22,310 nt of DNA from a virus, in IMG/VR virus record IMGVR_UViG_3300030385_000359, positions 5,086-27,395 of that record; one strand, written 5' to 3'. A program made the position numbers and the translations under genes. The notes beneath the pieces are model-generated. The model worked only from the letters and a program-made list of their open reading frames with translations. It was not told where the DNA came from and searched no databases. Of this stretch, positions 2,478-13,340 are shown in pieces (the first letter of the stretch is position 1; each line of letters opens with the position of its first letter).

Positions 2478-3041
2478 ATGGGATTAACAGCACAAATCAT
2501 ATTCATAGACGAAGCATATATCAAGGCTTATTCTCACATTGACGGAAGCGTTGATTCTAAAGATATGCTCCCGAGTATTATTCAAGCACAAGATAGTCAG
2601 ATTCAGCCGATTCTTGGAACAGACTTATACAATGACTTGAAGAATAGAATTAAGACCGATACTTTGTTGACTACTCACGAAACGCTCTTAAATGATTACG
2701 TTCGGATGGCGACTTTGAAATGGTTCTTAGTTCATTTTTATCCCTATCTTCAAGGGAAGATTTTAAACGGAACAATCGGGACAAGAAATGTAGATTCGAT
2801 TACTACCTTTTCACAACAAGAAGTTGAAAGACTTGTATCAATAGAAAGGACGAATGCACAATTCTATACTGAAAGATTGATTGCATATTTACGAGAAAAT
2901 GCCAGTCTTTTATTTCCCGAATACTCTTCCAATAGTGGAGCAGATATGATTCCCGAAACGTCTACCTATTATGATAGTGGATTAACAATCTCGGGAAACA
3001 AGAAAGGAAACCTCAAAAACTGGAATTGCAATGGCAGGTAA
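2478..3041 (+). CDS. Head-tail connector protein (DUF6712-like)
   Basis: A 187-residue, largely helical protein. The N-terminus (FIDEAYIKAYSHIDGSVDSKDMLPSI, IQPILGTDLYNDL) and middle (LLNDYVRMATLKWFLVHFYPYL, then TIGTRNVDSITT) match the shape of the DUF6712 family found just after portals in Bacteroidetes phages and treated as head-tail adaptors, analogous to HK97 gp6. The adaptor ring sits under the portal. Start ATG at 2478 follows the previous gene by 11 bases. The last 11 bases overlap the next tiny gene. Confidence 0.65.
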   Translation: MGLTAQIIFIDEAYIKAYSHIDGSVDSKDMLPSIIQAQDSQIQPILGTDLYNDLKNRIKTDTLLTTHETLLNDYVRMATLKWFLVHFYPYLQGKILNGTIGTRNVDSITTFSQQEVERLVSIERTNAQFYTERLIAYLRENASLLFPEYSSNSGADMIPETSTYYDSGLTISGNKKGNLKNWNCNGR

Positions 3042-3132
3042 GAAGAAAGGCAGTTTGTCTAACGAACAGCAAAAGAAGTTGAATGAAAGGCTTCTTAAAC
3101 TTTATCTAAAAAAGAAATGCAAAGCAAATTAG
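3031..3132 (+). CDS. Tiny lysine-rich protein, 33 residues
   Basis: ATG at 3031 opens a 33-residue frame (MAGKKKGSLSNEQQKKLNER onward, ending LKKKCKAN) that overlaps the connector gene by 11 bases and the next gene by 16. It is strongly basic (about a dozen Lys or Arg) with a central helical stretch. The family is not recognised. The chain of short overlaps on both sides, typical of this genome, is the main support for it being translated. Confidence 0.4.
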   Translation: MAGKKKGSLSNEQQKKLNERLLKLYLKKKCKAN

Positions 3133-3269
3133 ACTTCATATCATTTAATGCAATAAACGGAATGGCATTATCATTTACAATCGCTAACGTAGAAACAGTA
3201 TTGACTCTTCTCGTATTACTCACAGCACTTTTATATAACATCAAGAAGCTAACAAATAATGATAATTAG
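3117..3269 (+). CDS. Small single-span membrane protein, possible holin
   Basis: A 50-residue protein with one clear membrane segment (about residues 24-41, VETVLTLLVLLTALLYNI) followed by a basic and polar tail (KKLTNNDN). It lies directly upstream of, and overlaps by 11 bases, the M15 peptidase gene. A short membrane protein next to a peptidoglycan hydrolase is classic for a holin or other lysis membrane factor, so I infer that role. Two further small membrane proteins sit nearby, so which one forms the hole is open. Confidence 0.5.
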   Translation: MQSKLDFISFNAINGMALSFTIANVETVLTLLVLLTALLYNIKKLTNNDN

Positions 3270-3615
3270 ATATTTCAAAGAGTCTGAGTTTGTTTGCGAT
3301 GGTCAAAACTGTTTTGCTAAAATGGACATGGCATTGCTTGAGTCATTAGACTTAGCAAGGGAGGTCGCTGATACTCCTTTTATTATAACATCAAGTTGGA
3401 GGTCAGAAGAAAAAAATAAGGCTATTGGAGGGAAGCCAAATTCTGCTCATTTAAAAGGAAAAGCAGTAGACATCTCTTGTAAGAATTCTGCTAAAAGGAT
3501 GCACATTGTTGATGCTTTACTTTATGCAGGTTTCAGTAGAATAGGAATAGCAAAAGATTTTATTCATGCAGACGTAGACAAATCACTACCTCAAGACGTG
3601 ATGTGGATATATTAA
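3259..3615 (+). CDS. M15-family peptidase, probable endolysin
   Basis: A 118-residue protein of the VanY / peptidase M15 type, a zinc peptidase cleaving peptide cross-links in peptidoglycan. The zinc-site motifs are intact: SAHLKGKAVDI (His64, Asp71) and the C-terminal FIHADVD (His103). The TSSWRS segment at 44-49 also matches the family. Length is normal for compact phage endolysins or tail-associated M15 domains. There is no signal peptide, so a holin would be needed for export. Neighbouring small membrane proteins fit a lysis cassette. ATG at 3259 overlaps the upstream gene by 11 bases. Confidence 0.85.
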   Translation: MIIRYFKESEFVCDGQNCFAKMDMALLESLDLAREVADTPFIITSSWRSEEKNKAIGGKPNSAHLKGKAVDISCKNSAKRMHIVDALLYAGFSRIGIAKDFIHADVDKSLPQDVMWIY

Positions 3616-3630
3616 CATAAAAACAAAAAC

Positions 3631-3789
3631 ATGATTGAATTTATTTTAAACAACTGGGGAGAGTTACTTATCGGATTAATGGCACTTGCAAAAGTGATTG
3701 TAAACTTAACACCGACAGAAACTGACAATGAAGTCTTCTCTAAATTAGATGGCATTATCAACTTTCTAATAAAGGACAAACTTAAATGA
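3631..3789 (+). CDS. Small membrane protein, possible lysis factor
   Basis: ATG at 3631 opens a 52-residue protein with one membrane segment (about residues 9-28, WGELLIGLMALAKVIVNL) followed by TPTETDNEVFSKLDGIINFL and a basic end. The N-W-G-E start and the LTPTETDN turn recur in small phage proteins near lysins. The preceding leader is AACATAAAAACA and similar A-rich sequence, like other gene starts here. I infer a holin-like or spanin-helper role. Its stop overlaps the next ATG (ATGA). Confidence 0.5.
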   Translation: MIEFILNNWGELLIGLMALAKVIVNLTPTETDNEVFSKLDGIINFLIKDKLK

Positions 3790-3929
3790 TAGAAGAGAAG
3801 CCCTTAGAAGAAGCATCGAAAGATATAGCGAGAAACACATGGGGAAACTGGTTGGAAGATTTAGAAGATAAAGAACAACCGACTTGCAACATTGATAATT
3901 CAGAAGACTGTGAAAATTGTGGGAGTTAA
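3786..3929 (+). CDS. Small acidic protein with C-terminal cysteines
   Basis: A 47-residue protein coupled to the gene before it by an ATGA overlap. It is acidic (many Glu and Asp), contains two Trp in NTWGNWLEDLED, and ends with three cysteines (CNIDNSEDCENCGS). No membrane segment or lipobox. Family not recognised. It lies between membrane-protein genes of the lysis-like cassette and overlaps the next one by 20 bases. Confidence 0.4.
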   Translation: MIEEKPLEEASKDIARNTWGNWLEDLEDKEQPTCNIDNSEDCENCGS

Positions 3930-4137
3930 TGCGATTGCGAAAGCAATAGGAAAAGTGAGTGAAGTCTTTAAGGAGGGACAAAGGCAAAAGAAATGGAGTG
4001 CGAAGCGTTCAGTTAGTGGTGTTCTTGTTACTGCTTCGGTTACTGATATGGCAAGCAATGGACTAACTTGGATGAATGTTTCATTATCATTGATAGCTGT
4101 TCTCCCTTTGTGTTTTAGTGTATTCCAAAGAAATTAG
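3910..4137 (+). CDS. Small membrane protein, holin-like
   Basis: Frame of about 75 residues starting with GTG at 3910 (a TTG at 3892 would add six residues; no ATG is available near the start). It has a basic soluble N-terminus (KEGQRQKKWSAKRS) and two hydrophobic stretches: SGVLVTASVTDMA, weak, and MNVSLSLIAVLPLCFSVF, strong, near the C-terminus. It is the third small membrane protein beside the M15 peptidase, so a holin or antiholin role is plausible. An AGAAG stretch four bases upstream favours the GTG. It is the last gene before the non-coding region at 4138. Confidence 0.45.
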   Translation: MKIVGVNAIAKAIGKVSEVFKEGQRQKKWSAKRSVSGVLVTASVTDMASNGLTWMNVSLSLIAVLPLCFSVFQRN

Positions 4138-4179
4138 ATAAAGAATTACAAGGTGTCAAAACGATGCCTTTTCTTTTGC

Positions 4180-4210
4180 TTGTGTATATAAAATATTTTT
4201 ACTATATTTG
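4180..4210 (+). promoter_or_regulatory. Bacteroidetes sigma-A-type promoter
   Basis: TTG at 4180-4182 is followed after 20 bases by TATATTTG at 4203-4210, an exact match to the TAnnTTTG -7 element of Bacteroidetes vegetative promoters, with the TTG -33 element at the expected distance. The spacer is A/T-rich. It lies at the head of the early-type gene block in the only large gap of the window and points along the + strand, so it probably drives 4256 or 4533 onward. Confidence 0.7.
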
Positions 4211-4212
4211 GA

Positions 4213-4230
4213 TATACCGAATAAGGTATG
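4213..4230 (+). promoter_or_regulatory. Inverted repeat at predicted transcription start
   Basis: TATACC at 4213-4218 and GGTATG at 4225-4230 form a near-perfect inverted repeat (five Watson-Crick pairs plus one T-G) around a six-base centre. It sits 3-20 bases after the -7 element. It could be a repressor operator or a hairpin protecting the RNA 5' end. Both are inference. Confidence 0.4.
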
Positions 4231-4255
4231 ACAGTTCTTTGACATATTGAAATGA

Positions 4256-4486
4256 GTGATTCGCAAGAAGTTACAGACGGCTATTTACGATTCAAAATCC
4301 CAAATGCAACAGCAGGAGGTTCAAGCAACAAATAGGTACTTGAATAAGGATAATGAGTCTATTGGAATACAAGCACAGATGCTAAGTGCTTTAATCGTTA
4401 GGACGTTTCACTCTTTCAAATTGTCGCCACAATGGGCGAGTACAAAATACATGAGTTATACTGATGATTACAGAAGTATGAAATGA
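4256..4486 (+). CDS. Doubtful small protein
   Basis: A 76-codon open frame with GTG at 4256; an in-frame ATG at 4304 would give 60 residues. The product (YLNKDNESIGIQAQMLSALI and so on) has no motif I recognise. A competing 27-codon frame with ATG at 4252 (MSDSQEVTDGYLRFKIPNAT onward) overlaps it. The stop codon lies in the first bases of the hairpin at 4484. I keep it only because the frame is open over most of the control region and lies just after a good promoter; the stretch may instead be untranslated leader RNA. Confidence 0.25.
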   Translation: MIRKKLQTAIYDSKSQMQQQEVQATNRYLNKDNESIGIQAQMLSALIVRTFHSFKLSPQWASTKYMSYTDDYRSMK

Positions 4487-4505
4487 CAAGGCGAAAGCTT
4501 TGTCA
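4484..4505 (+). ncRNA. RNA hairpin with GAAA tetraloop
   Basis: TGACAA (4484-4489) pairs with TTGTCA (4500-4505); inside, GGC and GCT close the stem around GAAA at 4493-4496, a GNRA tetraloop. This gives nine base pairs including one G-U. It is followed by TATATAAC, not a T tract, so it is a weak terminator candidate and may rather be an RNA-stability or processing element upstream of the gene at 4533. Confidence 0.5.
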
Positions 4506-4532
4506 TATATAACTAACTATAAAGACAAGATT

Positions 4533-4763
4533 ATGACAAATTTTAACTACACACAATTAGTAAAAGAAACAGAATTAAGAACAATCAATTTTTTAACTAA
4601 ATTAATACCTATTAAAATGAATGATGAGAACCCTTACAATGGCGTTAAGCATTCAGATAAAGATGTCGATGTAATTTTAGAAAATCTAAATTACTTTAAC
4701 ACTTGGACATCAAAGCAAATGATGGAATGTTTAAATTACTTTAAAAATAAAATAGGAGCATAA
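4533..4763 (+). CDS. Small early-type protein of unknown function
   Basis: A 76-residue protein. I chose ATG 4533 over the upstream TTG at 4500 because the latter lies in the GNRA hairpin, and because ATG 4533 is preceded by ACAAGATT, the same start context as the genes at 5098 and 6067. The sequence (NFNYTQLVKETELRTINFLT, then two N-Y-F repeats ending MMECLNYFKNKIGA) is mixed-charge and helical. Family not recognised. The stop codon falls in the loop of the GGAGCA/TGCTCC hairpin. Confidence 0.6.
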   Translation: MTNFNYTQLVKETELRTINFLTKLIPIKMNDENPYNGVKHSDKDVDVILENLNYFNTWTSKQMMECLNYFKNKIGA

Positions 4764-4772
4764 TGCTCCTTT
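4755..4772 (+). terminator. Weak hairpin terminator or attenuator
   Basis: GGAGCA (4755-4760), TAA loop, TGCTCC (4764-4769), then TTT. A six-pair GC-rich stem with a short T run is terminator-like, but the T tract is only three to four bases, so read-through is expected. The stop codon of the preceding gene is the loop, so translation reaching the stop would melt the hairpin. Confidence 0.4.
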
Positions 4773-4791
4773 AACCCTAAAGAATGAGATT

Positions 4792-5016
4792 ATGAAACCA
4801 GTAAATAAATTTTCAAAGCAACAATTAAGTGACCAAATGTTCCACATGGGAACAGCACTTTTAGAATGTGTAATTCAGTTAGATTTAAGGACTGATGATT
4901 TGAAAGTGTTTAAGTCAAAAAAAATAGGAGTGTACTATCTTGTAGGGAACGAAGCAAATGATAAAGGCTTACCAACTACTATCTATTTCAAAAAGGACTT
5001 TAACGAATTAAACTAA
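4792..5016 (+). CDS. Small early-type protein of unknown function
   Basis: A 74-residue protein starting at ATG 4792 after the shared GAGATT start context. The N-terminal part is helical (FSKQQLSDQMFHMGTALLEC); the second half looks like a small beta sheet (KKIGVYYLVGNEANDKGLPT, TIYFKKDF). Family not recognised. Its stop codon (5014-5016) is immediately followed by the first strand of the hammerhead ribozyme at 5017, so translation ends just before the ribozyme. Confidence 0.6.
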   Translation: MKPVNKFSKQQLSDQMFHMGTALLECVIQLDLRTDDLKVFKSKKIGVYYLVGNEANDKGLPTTIYFKKDFNELN

Positions 5017-5075
5017 AATACACTGACGAGTTCTAAAGGGAACGAAACACCAGAATCAAAACTGGTGTCTGTATT
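5017..5075 (+). ncRNA. Type I hammerhead self-cleaving ribozyme
   Basis: All three helices and the catalytic core are present. Stem I: AATACA (5017-5022) with TGTATT (5070-5075). Core: CTGACGA (5023-5029), matching CUGANGA. Stem II: GTTCT (5030-5034) with GGAAC (5039-5043), conserved G-C closing pair, loop AAAG. Core: GAA (5044-5046). Stem III: ACACCAG (5047-5053) with CTGGTGT (5062-5068), eight-base loop. Cleavage nucleotide: C5069 in a GTC triplet. The open ends are in stem I, so it is type I. It fills the gap between the stop of the 74-residue gene and the next start. Self-cleavage after C5069 would leave a 28-base 5' leader with a 5'-hydroxyl on the downstream mRNA and a 2',3'-cyclic phosphate on the upstream one. 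I did not fold it by computer; loop-loop contacts needed for fast cleavage cannot be judged. Confidence 0.9.
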
Positions 5076-5086
5076 AACTAAAAACA
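5074..5086 (+). repeat. Leader repeat TTAACTAAAAACA, copy 1
   Basis: This 13-base sequence lies 11 bases before the ATG at 5098. It occurs again exactly at 5496-5508, nine bases before the ATG at 5518, and as AACTAAAAACA at 7640-7650, six bases before ATG 7657. A looser form precedes 4533 and 3631. The first two bases are also the end of ribozyme stem I. Confidence 0.6.
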
Positions 5087-5097
5087 ATATTAAGATT

Positions 5098-5487
5098 ATG
5101 ATTACACAAGAAGAAAAAAATGAACGAGCAATGGGCGTTGCAAACTTTGCAATGAAAATGCTAACAGATAAAACTGAGGAGCTTAATAAGATGTCCGATA
5201 GATTGCAAGGAGTAGAGAGAACGACAGAGGGCTATTTAGCAGAGATGAAGCTTTGGAAGTGCTTGGCATTAACTGGAAAGATATATGTTAAGACATACGC
5301 TCAAGATTGTGATGGAGTTTGCAACTATTCAAATTCTGTATTTACAAGCATGGATGATTACAATGAGGCATATGATTCGTGGTGTGATAGCATTGAAGGG
5401 AGATGTTCTTGGGAGGTTGTTCCTAAGAGTGAACTTCACGATGAAGAAGATTGTGGAACATTCGGTCATGGATGGGATATAGTATAA
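5098..5487 (+). CDS. Early-type protein downstream of the ribozyme
   Basis: A 129-residue protein. ATG 5098 is chosen over GTG 5065, which lies inside ribozyme stem III; ATG 5098 has the shared TAAGATT context. The N-terminal part is a likely helix or coiled coil (EEKNERAMGVANFAMKMLTD, ELNKMSDRLQGVERTTEGYL); the C-terminal part is acidic, aromatic and cysteine-bearing (QDCDGVCNYSNSVF, YDSWCDSIEGRCSWEVVPKS, EEDCGTFGHGWDIV). Family not recognised. Because the hammerhead cleaves 28 bases before its start, this is the gene whose mRNA would begin at the processed end. Confidence 0.65.
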   Translation: MITQEEKNERAMGVANFAMKMLTDKTEELNKMSDRLQGVERTTEGYLAEMKLWKCLALTGKIYVKTYAQDCDGVCNYSNSVFTSMDDYNEAYDSWCDSIEGRCSWEVVPKSELHDEEDCGTFGHGWDIV

Positions 5488-5495
5488 GCAGATAA

Positions 5496-5508
5496 TTAAC
5501 TAAAAACA
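5496..5508 (+). repeat. Leader repeat TTAACTAAAAACA, copy 2
   Basis: Exact second copy of the 13-base leader found at 5074-5086, here nine bases before the ATG at 5518. It has no Shine-Dalgarno match. A-rich leaders are the usual translation signal in Bacteroidetes, so this is probably a shared initiation enhancer or a recombination scar between early-gene cassettes. Confidence 0.6.
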
Positions 5509-5517
5509 GAAAACGAA

Positions 5518-5841
5518 ATGAGAAATCCAATTACGAAAGTAGAGTTAGAAAGAATTATTGAGCATGGAATCAATAAGGTGTACAATGAATCAGATAAATG
5601 GTTCGTGGCAACATTTAGAGAATTACAAACAACAAAGACGGATGAAGTATATCTTATGCGATTTGAAGGTGTGAAAGAAGCTTTAGATTATTATGAGCAA
5701 CTAACATCAAAAGATTTATTAGGATTAATGGAGGGGAGAGCTAAAGTAATATTCGGAACAATGGAAGATGATTGTTTAAGAATATCAAATGTGAAATACT
5801 TCAAGTCAGAGGACTGGAGTTTAATCGTAATAAACAAATAG
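5518..5841 (+). CDS. Early-type protein of unknown function
   Basis: A 107-residue protein whose start at 5518 follows the TTAACTAAAAACA leader. Visible pattern: MRNPITKVELERIIEHGINK (helix), a beta-rich centre (WFVATFRELQTT, DEVYLMRFEGVKEALDYYEQ), and a C-terminal strand-rich part (AKVIFGTMEDDCLRISNVKY). This is a compact alpha/beta domain with no catalytic motif that I recognise. It ends two bases before the next gene. Confidence 0.6.
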   Translation: MRNPITKVELERIIEHGINKVYNESDKWFVATFRELQTTKTDEVYLMRFEGVKEALDYYEQLTSKDLLGLMEGRAKVIFGTMEDDCLRISNVKYFKSEDWSLIVINK

Positions 5842-5843
5842 AC

Positions 5844-6062
5844 ATGAGCAGATTATTCAACGAGTTAGTAGAGAAAATTTTAAACGGAAATCCATACTCT
5901 AAAGGTTCTGAACTGGGACACTTAGTAGATGCAGAGCATGAGGAGTTTGAGTTTGAAAGAAGAAAGTGGTTAAGCGGTCAGATAACATTATTCAACGGAG
6001 GAACAGTTGAGCAATGGGTTGCACTTGGAAGACCAAAAAATAACAACATTAAAACGATATAA
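5844..6062 (+). CDS. Small early-type protein of unknown function
   Basis: A 72-residue protein. ATG 5844, two bases after the preceding stop, is a better start than the upstream ATG at 5772, which lies inside the previous gene. It is acidic in the middle (HLVDAEHEEFEFERRKWLSG) and ends with GGTVEQWVALGRPKNNNIKT. Family not recognised. Spacing is consistent with co-translation with its neighbours. Confidence 0.55.
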   Translation: MSRLFNELVEKILNGNPYSKGSELGHLVDAEHEEFEFERRKWLSGQITLFNGGTVEQWVALGRPKNNNIKTI

Positions 6063-6066
6063 GATT

Positions 6067-6270
6067 ATGCAAGACAGACAAACGACACCCGATTTTAAAG
6101 AGGATAGAGTATTTGATAAGAATTTAATATTCGACACGTCAGATGAATTAAGGGAAGAAGTACTTTGCTTGCTTGATGATATTATAACTGATATTGATAA
6201 TGAAATATCAGATTATGATAGAGAGCTTATGAAGTCAGATATAATTAACCATTTAAAAAAGAAACTATAA
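6067..6270 (+). CDS. Small acidic early-type protein
   Basis: A 67-residue protein starting at ATG 6067 after the shared ATAAGATT context; an ATG at 6007 would overlap the preceding gene by 56 bases and is less likely. The centre is strongly acidic and helical (SDELREEVLCLLDDIITDID, EISDYDRELM) with a basic tail (NHLKKKL). Small acidic phage proteins sometimes mimic DNA to block host enzymes, but that is speculation here. The stop overlaps the next start (TAATG). Confidence 0.55.
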   Translation: MQDRQTTPDFKEDRVFDKNLIFDTSDELREEVLCLLDDIITDIDNEISDYDRELMKSDIINHLKKKL

Positions 6271-6596
6271 TGATTACAGATACAATGACAAGGCAACAAA
6301 CGAAGACATGGGAACGATATGAAAGTGTCTTATTAGAGCAAGGATATTGGATTGAGGAAAACTTCAACGATTATTTCAAGGATGCTATTTTACCTATGGT
6401 AGCACAAGAATATGAGCAAGATGGAATCCCCGATGTGCCTGCAAGAAGAGAAGCTTATAATAATCAGATTGATGCGTTGGTAAAAGGTGGAGGAATGACA
6501 GAGTTCTATGCAAATGAGATGGGAGGAATTCCCGATGAATTAGAGGAATTAGTATTTAGAATTCGTTATGTAACAACAAAGAATCCAATCTATTAA
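6270..6596 (+). CDS. Early-type protein of unknown function
   Basis: A 108-residue, acidic, Tyr/Trp-rich protein coupled to the gene before it by TAATG. It contains RQQTKTWERYESVLLEQGYW, then DYFKDAILPMVAQEYEQDGI, and GGGMTEFYANEMGGIPDELE. It looks like a helical fold. Family not recognised. Confidence 0.6.
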   Translation: MITDTMTRQQTKTWERYESVLLEQGYWIEENFNDYFKDAILPMVAQEYEQDGIPDVPARREAYNNQIDALVKGGGMTEFYANEMGGIPDELEELVFRIRYVTTKNPIY

Positions 6597-6598
6597 TA

Positions 6599-6745
6599 AT
6601 GGCAAAATTTGGACTAGCAAAAGAGATAGCAAAATTATCAATAGAGAAGCTATCAAAGAAAGAATTAGAAACTGAATTATTCAACTTGTATATTTTACTT
6701 CCAAGCAAAGACTTGAGGGATATACTTAAACTCTTAAAAGGATGA
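6599..6745 (+). CDS. Tiny helical protein, 48 residues
   Basis: ATG 6599 opens a 48-residue protein (MAKFGLAKEIAKLSIEKLSK onward), rich in Lys, Leu and Glu and likely one or two amphipathic helices. It starts two bases after the preceding stop and ends in an ATGA overlap with the next gene. Context alone supports it being translated; the family is not recognised. Confidence 0.5.
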   Translation: MAKFGLAKEIAKLSIEKLSKKELETELFNLYILLPSKDLRDILKLLKG

Positions 6746-6930
6746 AACTAGATAGATACGAAGCAAATTTGAAAGTACTTGGAAACATTGTTTACTCTTA
6801 TGATACTAAGGTAGCAATCATTCACGATAAGCATATTGAGGTGCTTGGATATTGGAGTCGAACAACTTCAAAGCATATTAATTATGTCGGTCAATATTTT
6901 GATAAACCAGTCTTAAACAAAACAACATGA
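6742..6930 (+). CDS. Small protein with GYWSxTTxKHINYV motif
   Basis: A 62-residue protein, ATGA-coupled to the previous gene. Its core is IVYSYDTKVAII, then IEVLGYWSRTTSKHINYVGQ. The pattern of a Y-x-T-x-V-A strand followed by L-G-x-W-S-x-T-T-x-x-H-x-x-Y is known to me from small phage and plasmid proteins of unknown function (I believe the DUF8033 type, not verified). Probably a compact beta-rich domain. The last four bases overlap the next start (ATGA). Confidence 0.6.
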   Translation: MKLDRYEANLKVLGNIVYSYDTKVAIIHDKHIEVLGYWSRTTSKHINYVGQYFDKPVLNKTT

Positions 6931-7340
6931 AACAGAGGATAGAGATTAAAGCAATGTTTGAAAATATTGTGGACGAAGTTGAAAACGGAATGCTTGAACC
7001 TATTGAAGCTTTGATTATTTCAAAGACGATGGAAAACTGCGCAAAGCATTTAAAAGAATTGTACACAGACGAAGCATTAATCCATGCAGAGAAATGGAGT
7101 GGACAAACAATGAACGGATATGAGATAACTTCTAAGAACGGAGCGACTCGTTATAAGTTTGACCATATAGAAGAATACGCAACATTTAAGGACGGTCTGA
7201 AACAAATGGAATCAACTTATAAAGATGCTTACTTATCAGCACAGAAAGGAAATGTGATTGTTGATTCAGATGGAGTTATTGTTCCACAAGCAGAACCAGT
7301 CTTTGGAAAAGAGCAAATCGTTTTAAAACTTTCAAAATAG
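6927..7340 (+). CDS. Helical protein upstream of the SSB-like gene
   Basis: A 137-residue protein, ATGA-coupled to the previous gene. The N-terminal half is helical (MFENIVDEVENGMLEPIEAL, MENCAKHLKELYTDEALIHA); the second half contains GYEITSKNGATRYKFDHIEE and a helix with YATFKDGLKQMESTYKDAYL. Proteins of this size with a conserved K-x-G-x-R-x-x-Y-x-F-x-H-x-x-x-Y segment often lie near SSB or replication genes in Bacteroidetes phages. I assign no function. Confidence 0.6.
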   Translation: MKQRIEIKAMFENIVDEVENGMLEPIEALIISKTMENCAKHLKELYTDEALIHAEKWSGQTMNGYEITSKNGATRYKFDHIEEYATFKDGLKQMESTYKDAYLSAQKGNVIVDSDGVIVPQAEPVFGKEQIVLKLSK

Positions 7341-7344
7341 AACT

Positions 7345-7599
7345 ATGGAAACAAGACGGCAATTTATATCACGAATGATATGGCTGACAGCAGAAATAGA
7401 AAAGTCTGATAAAGGCAATATGTTGAATGCTGTAAATATGTTGGAATATGAATTACAACGGAGGGAAATAGCAATCCTTGAAAGTATATCAAGAAAGGTA
7501 ATAAACAAGTATTCAGAATTGATGACTTGTGGCAATTCAGTAAAATACACAAAGAGCAAACTCAACTCTTTATTCTTAGAGGAGAAGCTTAATGTATAA
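7345..7599 (+). CDS. Small protein of unknown function
   Basis: An 84-residue, mostly helical, basic protein (METRRQFISRMIWLTAEIEK, NMLNAVNMLEYELQRREIAI, then VINKYSELMT). Starts four bases after the previous stop. Family not recognised. It is the last gene before the 57-base gap that holds the leader of the SSB-like gene. Confidence 0.5.
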   Translation: METRRQFISRMIWLTAEIEKSDKGNMLNAVNMLEYELQRREIAILESISRKVINKYSELMTCGNSVKYTKSKLNSLFLEEKLNV

Positions 7600-7656
7600 A
7601 ATAGTTTTTTCACATCAATAAAAGTTTATATATTCACACAACTAAAAACAAACAAA

Positions 7657-8160
7657 ATGCAAAAGACAAGCAAAGTGATTTCGGTAACTGCGAACGGTAC
7701 ATGGGACGGTTCTTATGGAACGATGTACAAATTTGAAATCGTATTTCAGAACGCAGATGTTGGAGAGTATTCTTCAAAGAATAAAGAGCAAAACAAATTT
7801 GAGGTCGGTTCGGAAGTCGAATATGAATATACTGGAGGGCAATATCCAAAAGTGAAACCAGTTTATAATGCTCCGACTGGTGGAGGTGGTGGAGGTTCTT
7901 ACGGAGGTAAGAGTGATGATGTACAGAAGAAAATAGTACGTCAATCAATGCTTAAAGCATCGGTAGATTTTCACGCTATCAATCCACAACTGAAACCGTC
8001 AGAAGTTGACATTCTAAAAACAGCCGAACGATTCGTTCAATTTGTGAATGGAAATAGTGAACTTCAATTATCAAAAGAGTTTACTTCATTACCTACTGAA
8101 CCAGTTAAGCAAGTAGCAAATCTTGAGGCAACAGCAAAGAAAGATGATTTGCCTTTCTAA
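7657..8160 (+). CDS. ssb: Single-stranded DNA-binding protein (SSB-like)
   Basis: A 167-residue protein that would bind and protect single-stranded DNA during replication. Residues 1-70 look like a small OB-fold beta barrel (KVISVTANGTWDG, MYKFEIVFQNADVGEYSS, VGSEVEYEYTGGQYPKVKPV). A glycine-rich linker follows (GGGGGGSYGG, 75-84), then a helical part and an acidic tip ending DDLPF (163-167). That tip closely matches the DDIPF/DDLPF ends with which bacterial SSBs recruit partner proteins. The extra helical segment (about 85-140) is not part of standard SSB. Its leader carries the AACTAAAAACA motif, and a strong terminator follows. Confidence 0.75.
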   Translation: MQKTSKVISVTANGTWDGSYGTMYKFEIVFQNADVGEYSSKNKEQNKFEVGSEVEYEYTGGQYPKVKPVYNAPTGGGGGGSYGGKSDDVQKKIVRQSMLKASVDFHAINPQLKPSEVDILKTAERFVQFVNGNSELQLSKEFTSLPTEPVKQVANLEATAKKDDLPF

Positions 8161-8173
8161 AATAGTAATAATC

Positions 8174-8208
8174 GAAAAGAAGCGTTCTAACAGCGTTTCT
8201 TTTTTTTT
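8174..8208 (+). terminator. Intrinsic terminator after the SSB-like gene
   Basis: AGAAGCGTT (8178-8186), loop CTAAC, AGCGTTTCT (8192-8200) form a nine-pair stem with two G-T pairs, extended by the flanking A and T runs, followed by a T tract to 8208. It lies 13 bases after the SSB stop. This is the best intrinsic terminator in the window and would end or attenuate the early transcript begun near 4210. Confidence 0.8.
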
Positions 8209-8223
8209 AAACCAACTTACATT

Positions 8224-8442
8224 ATGATAACATTTGAAGCGAACACTCCGCAAGAAAAGTGGATTAAAAAGCATTTTAACAGCAAGGCTGAACTTATAAG
8301 AGCAACAAAACTATCAAGACCAACGATAGACAAGATGTGTAAAGATTCGGAATTATTCTTTAAGTACATTCCTTTATTTGCACACATAACAAAACAATCG
8401 AAAGACAAGGTAGTTCAGCAGATGTTTAATTACGCTCTATAA
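8224..8442 (+). CDS. Small helix-turn-helix DNA-binding protein
   Basis: A 72-residue protein. The segment SKAELIRATKLSRPTIDKMC (about residues 20-39) reads as a helix-turn-helix, with A-E-L as helix 2 and S-R-P-T-I as the start of the recognition helix. This suggests a Cro-like regulator or a replication accessory protein. It is the first gene after the terminator and overlaps the replication initiator by one base (TAATG), so the two are likely co-expressed. Confidence 0.6.
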   Translation: MITFEANTPQEKWIKKHFNSKAELIRATKLSRPTIDKMCKDSELFFKYIPLFAHITKQSKDKVVQQMFNYAL

Positions 8443-9200
8443 TGGAGTATTCATTCAACATAGAATATGCCGAAAAATATGGAGTAGCAGAAGCAATCGT
8501 GATAAAGAATTTTCAGTACTGGATAAAGAAAAACAAATCTAATTCAAAAGCAAATCACGATGGAAGAACTTGGACTTTCAATTCAGTAAAAGCATTTGAG
8601 GATTTATTCCCATTTTGGACAGTAGGACAGATGAATAGAATCTTGAAGTCGTTAGTAGAGCAAGAAGTTTTATTGACTGGCAATTATAACAAGATGAAAT
8701 ACGATAGGACAAAATGGTATGCGTTCAGCGATGAATACTCATTTGTTGTTTTAGGTAGTTCCATTTCTCGAAAACAGAAAATGGATTTGTCAGAACCGAT
8801 AAATGGATTTACTGAAACCGATAAACCTATACCAAATGTAAAAGAAGATATAAAACAAAAATACTATAAAGACATGATAGTTGTCTACGACAACTTCTGC
8901 AAACATCAATTTGATGCTCCTGCCATGATAAACGGACAAGAGGGAAAAGCGATGAAAAGCATCATGAAGTATCTTAAAAATCTTTGCAAAGTAAAGGGAG
9001 ATGATTCGCCCGAGCAGATTATAGCATCTTTTGAATACATATTGGCGAACTGGGAAAAGTTAGAACCGTTCTTACAGAAACAAATTAAGCTTTCCCAAAT
9101 CAATTCAAATATCACTAACATTATTAATCAACTGAAAAATGGAGGAGAAAAAAGAAGTAGCAACAATCTCGCAGAACAGATACTTGACAAGTATAGATAA
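8442..9200 (+). CDS. Phage replication initiator-like protein
   Basis: A 252-residue protein. The first ~100 residues form the winged-helix domain common to phage replisome organiser proteins of Bacteroidetes and Firmicutes: FNIEYAEKYGVAEAIVIKNF, YWIKKNKSNSKANHDGRTW, the FPFWTVGQMNRILKSLVEQE recognition region, and YDRTKWYAFSDE. A polar linker (about 105-140) leads to a C-terminal helical region with WEKLEPFLQKQIKLSQINSN. It probably binds the phage origin and recruits the host helicase or loader. An origin may lie inside or near this gene, but I saw no clear iterons. Its end overlaps the next gene by 62 bases. Confidence 0.7.
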   Translation: MEYSFNIEYAEKYGVAEAIVIKNFQYWIKKNKSNSKANHDGRTWTFNSVKAFEDLFPFWTVGQMNRILKSLVEQEVLLTGNYNKMKYDRTKWYAFSDEYSFVVLGSSISRKQKMDLSEPINGFTETDKPIPNVKEDIKQKYYKDMIVVYDNFCKHQFDAPAMINGQEGKAMKSIMKYLKNLCKVKGDDSPEQIIASFEYILANWEKLEPFLQKQIKLSQINSNITNIINQLKNGGEKRSSNNLAEQILDKYR

Positions 9201-10576: not shown

Positions 10577-10727
10577 ACCAAAAGTAAAAGAAAAGGATGA
10601 TATTTTTATCGGGAGGTGTCTTGGAGATTCTTTCATGATAGAAAATTACAAAAACAAAACACAACGAAAAGCAGAATGCTGTTCTCAGCTAAAGAAAAGA
10701 CCAAAGAAAAGGAATGTACGAACTTAG
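10566..10727 (+). CDS. Small basic protein, 53 residues
   Basis: ATG 10566 opens a 53-residue, very basic protein (MKPKPKVKEKDDIFIGRCLG, later RKAECCSQLKKRPKKRNVRT). It overlaps the VRR-NUC gene by 11 bases and queD by 14. Family not recognised. Its charge suggests nucleic-acid binding, which is inference. Confidence 0.45.
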   Translation: MKPKPKVKEKDDIFIGRCLGDSFMIENYKNKTQRKAECCSQLKKRPKKRNVRT

Positions 10728-11136
10728 TAAATCATTCAGATTTGAAACAGCGCACAGATTAGCAAAGGGCTATGAAGGAAAGTGCGCCAACATACATGGA
10801 CATTCTTGGAATGGAAGCGTAACATTAAGAACGGATATATTAGATGAATTTTCATTTGGTATAGATTACGGAAACATCAAGATATTCTACAAAGACTTGA
10901 TAGATGAATTAGACCATTCAATTCTCTTATACAGATTTGATACTGAACTGATTGATTTATGTAAAGAGAAAGGTTGGAAGTATATGTTATTTGATGAAAA
11001 TCCAACTTCGGAATGTATTGCCAAATATTTATTTGAAGCAATTAAAGAAAGAGCGTATGCCTATGATTCAGCAATCGAATTGATAGATGTAACAATCGAA
11101 GAAACTTGCACTTCTAAATGCGTGTATTATGATTAG
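10714..11136 (+). CDS. queD: QueD, 6-carboxytetrahydropterin synthase
   Basis: A 140-residue protein of the PTPS/QueD family. It converts 7,8-dihydroneopterin triphosphate to 6-carboxy-5,6,7,8-tetrahydropterin, step two of 7-deazaguanine synthesis. Signature residues are intact: zinc ligands His14 (FETAHRL), His28 and His30 (NIHGHSW); catalytic Cys24 (GKCANIHGH); Asp67-His68 (LDHSIL); Glu130 near the end (EETCTSKCVYYD). Length is typical. First recognised gene of the preQ0 operon, overlapping queE by 8 bases. Confidence 0.9.
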   Translation: MYELSKSFRFETAHRLAKGYEGKCANIHGHSWNGSVTLRTDILDEFSFGIDYGNIKIFYKDLIDELDHSILLYRFDTELIDLCKEKGWKYMLFDENPTSECIAKYLFEAIKERAYAYDSAIELIDVTIEETCTSKCVYYD

Positions 11137-11848
11137 AGTATCGGAAGACTTTTATTCTATCCAAGGTGAGGGAGCGACAATGGGAGTGCCTGCTGTTTTC
11201 CTGCGATTACAAGCATGCAATCTGATGTGCGGTGGACTTGGAACAGAAAGGGACGGAAAGTTGCACAACGGAGCTAAATGGAGATGTGATACGATTGAAG
11301 TTTGGAAGCAGGGAGTGAAACATTCAATTGAAGGTTTCGGAGATTATATCATCAAAACGTATGGAGATGTTCTTGATAAGGGAGCGCATCTTATTTGGAC
11401 TGGAGGCGAACCATTAATGCAACAGAAAGCTATAATTGATGTGATGGTTTATCTAGCGAAAGAAGGACTCACTCCATACGTTGAGATAGAAACGAACGGA
11501 ACGCTAAGACCGAAAAATGCTTTAGATGTATTTGTAGACTTGTATAACGTATCTCCAAAGCTTTCAAATAGTGGAGTAACTGCCATCAAGCGATACAGAA
11601 AAGAAGTCTTGAGTTGGTATCAATCAAAGAACGCAATCTTTAAATTCGTAGTTTCAAACGAAGAAGATTGGAGCGAAATAGTACAAATGGATTTGCCATA
11701 CAATATGCTATATCTAATGCCATCAGCAAGCAATAGAGAGGAGTTGGAAAAGTCTTCTAAAATTGTAACAAAAATCTGCTTAGAGAAAACAATTAAATTT
11801 TCAACACGTTTACAGATAGTTTTATGGAATCAAACAGTCGGAGTATAA
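11129..11848 (+). CDS. queE: QueE, 7-carboxy-7-deazaguanine synthase
   Basis: A 239-residue radical-SAM enzyme that rearranges carboxytetrahydropterin to 7-carboxy-7-deazaguanine, step three. FYSIQGEG near the N-terminus is the family hallmark, followed by GVPAVFLRLQACNLMC. The cluster cysteines are Cys30, Cys34 and Cys53: the third is displaced by 18 residues from the second (CNLMC, insert, RCDT), unlike the usual CxxxCxxC. Phage and clostridial QueE proteins with a similar insert exist. WTGGEPLMQ and VEIETNGT follow, and the C-terminus is RLQIVLWNQTVGV. Overlaps folE by 25 bases. Confidence 0.9.
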   Translation: MIRVSEDFYSIQGEGATMGVPAVFLRLQACNLMCGGLGTERDGKLHNGAKWRCDTIEVWKQGVKHSIEGFGDYIIKTYGDVLDKGAHLIWTGGEPLMQQKAIIDVMVYLAKEGLTPYVEIETNGTLRPKNALDVFVDLYNVSPKLSNSGVTAIKRYRKEVLSWYQSKNAIFKFVVSNEEDWSEIVQMDLPYNMLYLMPSASNREELEKSSKIVTKICLEKTIKFSTRLQIVLWNQTVGV

Positions 11849-12657
11849 CATGGAAAGAAATCTACGAAAGGATTTCAAAGTTGCCAAAAGGAAAGTATTA
11901 CGGAGTGCCAAGAGGAGGTCAAGTCATTGCAGGACTAACTGGAAGCGCAGTAGATAATCCAAACGATGCCGATTACATTATTGACGATTTAGTTGATAGT
12001 GGAAGAACGAGAGAAAAGTGGGAAAAGGAATATCCTAATAAACCATTCATAGCATTGTTCGATAAACAATTAGAATCTGAATTGACTGGTCGTTGGCTAG
12101 AATTTAGTTGGGAACAAGACTCAAGCAGGGATGCAGAAGATAGCGTGGCGAGGTTGCTTGAATACTTTGGAGAAGATTTATCAAGAGAGGGATTGAAAGA
12201 TACTCCGAAGCGATATGTGAAATTCTTCAAAGAGTTTCTTAATCCTCCGAAATGGAATTGTACATCATTTGAAAGTGAGGGATATGATGAAATGATTGTA
12301 CAATCAAACATTCCTTTTCACTCGTTATGCGAACACCATATCGCACCATTCTTCGGAGAGGGTTTCATAGCATACATTCCGAATAAAAGAATTGTCGGAC
12401 TTAGTAAGTTGGCAAGAACCTTAGAAACATTCTCAAGACGTTTACAGAACCAAGAACGAATCACAACTCAAGTAGCAGAATTCTTGCAAGAAGAGTTAGA
12501 CGCTAAAGGAGTCGCAGTTGTTTTGAAGGCGAAACATATGTGTATGGAAATGAGAGGAGTAAAGAAGCATGATACATATACCACAACTTCAAAATTGATT
12601 GGAGTGTTTAAAGACGATGCAGATGTAAGAAGTGAATTTCTAAACCTTATAAAATGA
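11824..12657 (+). CDS. folE: PRTase domain fused to GTP cyclohydrolase I
   Basis: A 277-residue fusion. Residues about 1-95 look like a small phosphoribosyltransferase: GKYYGVPRGGQVIAGL (23-38) and the PRPP-binding loop YIIDDLVDSGRT (51-62). Residues about 105-277 are GTP cyclohydrolase I, which turns GTP into dihydroneopterin triphosphate, step one of preQ0 synthesis. Zinc ligands are intact: Cys169 in LCEHH, His238 and Cys240 in KAKHMCMEMRG, with GEGFIAYIP and GLSKLAR between. The FolE part is near the length of stand-alone phage FolE. The extra domain could supply a nucleotide precursor or act on a deazaguanine base; that is inference. Overlaps queE by 25 bases and queC by ATGA. Confidence 0.85.
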   Translation: MESNSRSITWKEIYERISKLPKGKYYGVPRGGQVIAGLTGSAVDNPNDADYIIDDLVDSGRTREKWEKEYPNKPFIALFDKQLESELTGRWLEFSWEQDSSRDAEDSVARLLEYFGEDLSREGLKDTPKRYVKFFKEFLNPPKWNCTSFESEGYDEMIVQSNIPFHSLCEHHIAPFFGEGFIAYIPNKRIVGLSKLARTLETFSRRLQNQERITTQVAEFLQEELDAKGVAVVLKAKHMCMEMRGVKKHDTYTTTSKLIGVFKDDADVRSEFLNLIK

Positions 12658-13340
12658 AAAAAGCAATAGTTATATTCTCGGGAGGACAAGACAGTACAAC
12701 GTGCTTGTATTGGGCAATAAACCGATTCAAAAACGTGGAAGCAATCACGTTTGATTATGGGCAGAAACATAGTAGGGAAATAGAGAAGTCAATTGATATT
12801 TGTAAACTCGCAGGAGTAAAGCAAACGATTATTGATATTTCATTTCTTAATACGATTGTAGATAGTGCCTTAACATCGAACGGAGATGTGAACGAAATAA
12901 ACGAAAAGGGATTGCCTGCATCTTTTGTTCCAAATAGGAATCAACTATTTATCACTTTAGCACATTCATACGCTCAGAAGATAAGAGCAACGAAATTAAT
13001 TACTGGAGTCTGTCAAACGGATTATAGTGGTTATCCCGATTGTCGTCAAGCATTCATAAATGCTATCGAACAAGCAACGAATTTAGGAAGCGATTCAAAC
13101 ATTGAAATCCTCACTCCCTTAATGGATTTGGATAAAGCAGAAACATTTGATTTAGCAGAAGCAGAGGGCTGTTTAGATGTTGTGATAAATCATTCTCACA
13201 CTTGTTACAATGGCGATTCAAAGATGAATGACTGGGGAGCAGGTTGTGGAGATTGTCCTGCTTGTAAATTAAGAGAAGCAGGTTTCAACGAATACCATAA
13301 CAGAAAAGCAAAGCAACGAAATCCATTCAGAGCATTATGA
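12654..13340 (+). CDS. queC: QueC, 7-cyano-7-deazaguanine synthase
   Basis: A 228-residue ATP-dependent enzyme converting 7-carboxy-7-deazaguanine to preQ0, step four. The PP-loop SGGQDS is at 9-14, FDYGQKH at 33-39, FVPNRNQLF at 91-99, TGVCQTDYSGYPDCR at 117-131. The zinc site is complete: Cys184 (HTCYNGD), Cys198, Cys201 and Cys204 (GCGDCPAC). Length is normal. ATGA overlap with the folE fusion and 4-base overlap with the next gene show a single operon. Confidence 0.92.
   Translation: MKKAIVIFSGGQDSTTCLYWAINRFKNVEAITFDYGQKHSREIEKSIDICKLAGVKQTIIDISFLNTIVDSALTSNGDVNEINEKGLPASFVPNRNQLFITLAHSYAQKIRATKLITGVCQTDYSGYPDCRQAFINAIEQATNLGSDSNIEILTPLMDLDKAETFDLAEAEGCLDVVINHSHTCYNGDSKMNDWGAGCGDCPACKLREAGFNEYHNRKAKQRNPFRAL

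Follow-up and report, generated by a model that had tools for sequence, protein, structure and literature searches.

Multiple hammerhead ribozymes are known to flank prophage genes, and their proposed function is to break long phage transcripts up into shorter mRNAs (Perreault et al. 2011, PMC3088659). Three tandem prophage arrangements cleaved in vitro, one of them also in E. coli, and in a halovirus the 5' end of an mRNA maps within three nucleotides of the hammerhead site (PMC3088659). What hammerheads do in phages has been described as an open question (PMC6155905, PMC10085705).

We analyzed a 22,310-nucleotide stretch of viral DNA, here called the window, which belongs to a 33,843-base IMG/VR virus record and contains a type I hammerhead motif at positions 5017–5075 of the plus strand. 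Like the clusters of Perreault et al. 2011 (PMC3088659), the motif lies between small phage genes in their coding orientation; unlike them, it stands alone, in what is likely a Bacteroidota phage, and has an A-rich leader of the Bacteroidota type. The HHphage hammerheads of haloviruses HF1 and HF2 (PMC3088659) are also found just before the start codon of a viral gene, but they lie 13 nt from the start, carry atypical core insertions and come from viruses of an archaeal host, whereas in the window the core is canonical and the leader would be 28 nt long. With the Rfam family RF00163 (Hammerhead_1) it shares the type I architecture and the core, yet it scores under the 34-bit cut-off, as do the listed type I phage copies of six other loci. 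A further array, L163 (IMGVR_UViG_3300021443_000054), resembles the window in having homologous genes, a similar stem III (GAAACACCAG...CTGGTGTC) and a similar leader; it contains four hammerheads, three of them intact and one with an additional U after A9, against a single copy in the window. An earlier note had described a complete hammerhead between two phage genes that would cut 28 bases before the next start. Sequence, structure, a chance control, a family-specific covariance model and the comparative context all support that reading well; since clustered gene-flanking phage hammerheads, and with them the idea of transcript processing, date from 2011 (PMC3088659), the window motif is a further member of a known group.

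Architecture of the hammerhead motif

Stem I, open to the flanks, is formed by six pairs between AATACA (5017–5022) and TGTATT (5070–5075). Its 5' arm is followed by the catalytic core CTGACGA (5023–5029; CUGACGA in the RNA, C3 to A9), then by stem II, in which GTTCT (5030–5034) and GGAAC (5039–5043) make five pairs, one of them U-G, around the loop AAAG. The core bases GAA (5044–5046; G12, A13, A14) lead into stem III, with seven pairs between ACACCAG (5047–5053) and CTGGTGT (5062–5068) around the 8-nt loop AATCAAAA and with A15.1-U16.1 as the closing pair. A single C (5069, C17) separates stem III from the 3' arm of stem I. The hammerhead core definition (C3 U4 G5 A6 N7 G8 A9, G12 A13 A14, H17) is matched at every base, by CUGACGA, GAA and C5069, and the three core-adjacent pairs are all present: 10.1-11.1 as G5030-C5043, 15.1-16.1 as A5047-U5068 and 1.1-2.1 as A5022-U5070. 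The minimum free energy fold of the motif is exactly the hammerhead secondary structure, with three helices around the core (-14.5 kcal/mol, z -2.76). In a 161-nt context the minimum free energy structure keeps the same three helices, yet its share of the ensemble is just 0.6%, and stem I is missing from the centroid.

These results bear out the earlier note base for base as regards the complete core (CUGACGA, GAA, A15.1-U16.1, C17) and the helices of 6, 5 (one G-T) and 7 pairs, which the fold reproduces. The note was also right that the motif exactly fills the gap from the stop codon to the next leader, with the TAA at 5014–5016 abutting the motif start at 5017, and that the predicted cut site, after 5069, lies 28 bases ahead of the start at 5098; cleavage between C17 (5069) and U5070 is predicted by applying established hammerhead chemistry to the sequence. 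The computations show the structure to be a hammerhead, placed as phage hammerheads typically are. The 59-base stretch almost certainly encodes a self-cutting type I hammerhead RNA, its self-cleavage being predicted from the intact core.

Recognition by covariance models

The earlier note had proposed a search with the Rfam hammerhead models. Both RF00163 and RF03152 (RAGATH-1-hammerhead) match the window, and both matches fall below the gathering cut-offs. RF00163, aligned over its full length, gives 23.4 bits against a cut-off of 34, with E values of 0.13 against all of Rfam and 4.5e-5 for a single family in a single genome; RF03152 gives 24.8 bits against 56.3, and we do not file the motif as RAGATH-1. 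In six other hammerhead-rich phage loci, no copy reaches the Rfam cut-off: the type I copies listed score 25–30 bits (best 30.2), and many copies are absent from the Rfam listing altogether. The Rfam cut-offs thus missed every phage copy checked, and standard annotation likely overlooks most phage hammerheads.

We built a covariance model, R1, from 40 other phage hammerheads, excluding the window and L163. It scores the window at 49.2 bits (E about 1e-12), the level of two of the three intact L163 copies. R1 found no match in L002 or L003, two relatives described below, in Flavobacterium phage 11b or in the first 50 kb of Cellulophaga phage phi10:1; the descriptor used in the scans below likewise gave no hammerhead in phage 11b or in that part of phi10:1.

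Stem I pairing and variation in the phage set

Patterns were scanned against viral contigs and, in one case, genome contigs, and a descriptor applied to the matches yielded at least 396 distinct type I motifs, including that of the window. The first scan fixed neither stem I nor the leader; the second and third fixed part of one, so leader sequences from them are not independent evidence. Covariation counts on the alignment A1 are partly circular because the scanner demanded pairing, and the fair test is one of stem I in matches to patterns that fix the core and not stem I. At least five contiguous stem I pairs are present in 106 of 120 and 78 of 85 such matches listed, with AU, UA, GC and CG pairs all represented; when the stem I partner was slid by one or two positions as a control, none had more than three pairs. 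The earlier note had counted a lack of paired-base conservation in related phages against its reading; in other phage hammerheads, stem I pairing is maintained by compensatory changes. We found no excess over control for an extension of stem I past an internal loop in this set.

Where a locus among the matches listed has more than one motif, the motifs share a single strand, in 88 of 88 cases. In these loci stem I identity is 0.76 within and 0.46 between genomes, compared with 0.48 and 0.40 for stem II and 0.63 and 0.50 for stem III; the excess of likeness within a genome over that between genomes is greater for stem I than for stems II and III. A common stem I within a genome could reflect gene conversion, a shared 5' tag, or a capacity of cut ends to pair and rejoin. 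RtcB RNA ligase, considered as a partner, is absent from the 20 viral records searched and present only in a cellular genome.

In the 172 motifs listed with a six-pair stem I, A predominates at the positions that flank this stem (78% at -1, 76% at +1 and 77% at +2), and loop II is mostly UNANU. The combination looks like a conserved tertiary contact in the phage set. A contact between stem I and loop II is needed for fast hammerhead cutting. The window has the flanking As of the family alongside a stem-loop II (5030–5043) of 14 nt with the loop UAAAGG, where the family mostly has 12–13 nt; with this longer stem-loop the contact may be weaker and the cutting rate may be lower.

Two core variants recur in the set. 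One has an extra base between A9 and stem II (L085, L097, L112, L163 at 2247, L285 and two in L349); the base is U in all seven, stem II is closed by G-C, and start codons follow 17–52 nt past the predicted cut. A viroid hammerhead carrying an extra A at this position is active. The other is a mismatch at 10.1/11.1 in otherwise intact hammerheads of L076, L349, L356 (1752) and L224, U-U in three and A-A in one; U-U here is a natural hammerhead variant that supports cleavage (PMC3088659). L349, a Candidatus Thermoplasmatota MAG contig and so assigned to an archaeon, has several type I hammerheads on one strand, mostly 35–50 nt before an ATG and some with a long stem II.

Placement, spacing and leader

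The upstream gene (4792–5016, plus strand, 74 aa), for which no Pfam or PHROG match was found, runs up to the motif. With the predicted cut at 5069/5070 and the next ATG at 5098, the leader of the downstream cut product would be the 28 nt from 5070 to 5097, with the box AACUAAAA at 5076–5083. The downstream gene (5098–5487, plus strand) encodes 129 aa. The gene after it (5518–5841, plus strand) has the same leader box and no ribozyme. The flanking genes, which the earlier note called early, can be placed in that class by position only.

The spacing is shared with the phage set. If the next start is taken as the first ATG that opens 40 codons or more, the predicted cut lies a median of 27 nt before it for 165 motifs listed and 26 nt for 73 listed, close to the 28 nt of the window; random positions on the same strand have medians of 106–107 nt, and the opposite strand gives 999 (none within reach) and 264. 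The upstream frame often stops at the motif start or shortly within it, at offsets of 0, +1, +6 and +10 in the phage motifs listed, where +6 is the TAA of stem I and +10 the UGA of the core; the window has 0. The window has the layout typical of the set, a stop near the motif start and a start codon about 20–40 nt beyond the predicted cut. A near-fixed distance from cut to start, abutment of the stop codon and sharing of stem I within a genome were not found stated in the open-licence papers searched, and earlier reports may exist.

The leader outside stem I has no structure in the 161-nt fold. It is A-rich, with A at -3 (..AAGAUU-AUG). Flavobacterium does without Shine-Dalgarno sequences and tunes translation through mRNA structure and an A at -3 (PMC6847099). 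No Bacteroidota-type promoter was found at 3000–9000 of the window with the pattern used. The shared leader repeat described in the earlier note is real: AACTAAAA precedes ATGs at 5076, 5498, 7640, 9899 and 19798.

The AACTAAAA box occurs on both sides of the ribozyme, at 5011–5018 and 5076–5083, and recombination between the two copies would leave a normal stop-leader junction. Such a two-sided repeat was seen in one of 388 motifs listed, that of the window, and may be chance. The idea that direct repeats mark insertion in general was considered and rejected, with no clear excess among the motifs listed.

Source phage and gene homologs

The large terminase is closest, among isolated phages, to those of Flavobacterium phage 11b (47.6%) and Cellulophaga phage phi10:1 (45.5%), which makes a Bacteroidota host likely. 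At the DNA level the region has no similarity to isolated phages, and no homolog of the downstream protein was found in them. A single-sequence search of viral contigs with this protein gave none, and a two-sequence alignment gave eight loci, L163 included. A hammerhead-like motif lies directly before the homolog in one of the eight, L163; L356 has hammerheads elsewhere in its own array.

L163 shares backbone genes with the window phage and has similar AACTAAAA leaders. The gene behind its first hammerhead, which is intact, is 39% identical to window 5518–5841, and that behind its fourth, the variant with the extra U, is 40% identical to window 5098–5487. L002 and L003 share the backbone (76% terminase identity) and have neither the ribozyme nor its flanking genes. 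Since these two lack the element and just one of eight homologs lies behind one, the element comes and goes and is tied to no single gene. Its absence at this locus in the two closest relatives also means that a gene-specific regulatory role is not supported. The 33.8-kb record contains one hammerhead only; several copies are frequent in the phage set without being required, and many members are likewise single within the stretch examined.

A probable role in transcript processing

The best explanation, which we hold to be probable, is that this type I hammerhead punctuates a polycistronic phage transcript by self-cutting. The motif would fold as RNA polymerase passes and cut itself between C5069 and U5070. 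Of the two fragments that hammerhead cleavage yields, the upstream one ends in a 2',3'-cyclic phosphate and the downstream one starts with a 5'-hydroxyl. The upstream product would end in the folded stems of the ribozyme, with the cyclic phosphate, just past the stop of gene 4792–5016, and the downstream product would begin with the 5'-hydroxyl, followed by the 28-nt A-rich, unstructured leader before the start at 5098. With the upstream message removed, the leader would be freed together with its stem I arm, and the two messages could decay separately. Uncoupling the stability and translation of both would be the likely benefit.

A different reading is that the hammerhead folds yet cuts slowly or never, as a remnant, neutral or in decay, of a larger array, carried along by an accessory gene. 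It is a single copy, L002 and L003 are without it, and its loop II region is one to two bases above the family norm; the variant-core copies in related arrays (extra U after A9; 10.1/11.1 mismatch) further indicate that hammerhead copies drift. Against this, no required core base is missing, the three helices are complete, the R1 score matches that of two of the three intact L163 copies, and the predicted cut-to-start spacing is the family norm. We therefore consider a remnant unlikely. Still less probable is a regulated switch, in which a protein, ion or metabolite controls cleavage and the ribozyme toggles the downstream gene. The location just upstream of a start codon would suit a switch, and salt-tuned hammerheads have been proposed for haloviruses (PMC3088659), but all 59 bases are ribozyme, with no extra aptamer-like domain, and the same layout is found before many different genes in other phages, which constitutive processing fits better. 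A chance look-alike, that is, an ordinary intergenic structure, terminator or mRNA stabiliser, would explain the Rfam score below cut-off and is scarcely credible given the R1 E value, the presence of all the core bases irrelevant to helix stability, and a control of 1,500 first-order shuffles of the window, in which a lenient descriptor for all three permutations gave 50 matches of any type, with at most 17 pairs and none reaching the window's 18.

Generating mRNA 5' ends is the one role to which the tight cut-to-start spacing, the stops abutting or within the motif and the use of a single strand all point. Based on these observations, we suggest, as the best explanation, that the ribozyme is a removable intercistronic cutter that would give the downstream mRNA a short, unstructured, A-rich leader. 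More broadly, phage type I hammerheads may be a widespread and largely unannotated form of operon punctuation, each filling the gap from stop codon to leader and cutting at a near-fixed distance of about 25 nt before the next start, with a stem I that tends to be shared per genome and so to provide a common mRNA 5' tag; the window copy would be the minimal, single-copy case in a Bacteroidota phage. We regard this generalization as evenly balanced. The window and L163 offer small constructs with which to study this role in a group of hosts whose translation does not use Shine-Dalgarno pairing.

Other features of the window and related records

In one virus record, L016, ten consecutive N occupy positions 366–375, within an apparent tape-measure gene. 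In the window itself, 10714–13340 contains genes matching PTPS (QueD-like), GTP cyclohydrolase I and QueC, and a 239-aa frame between them resembles QueE by eye. This set of genes suggests preQ0 synthesis and perhaps 7-deazaguanine modification of the DNA.
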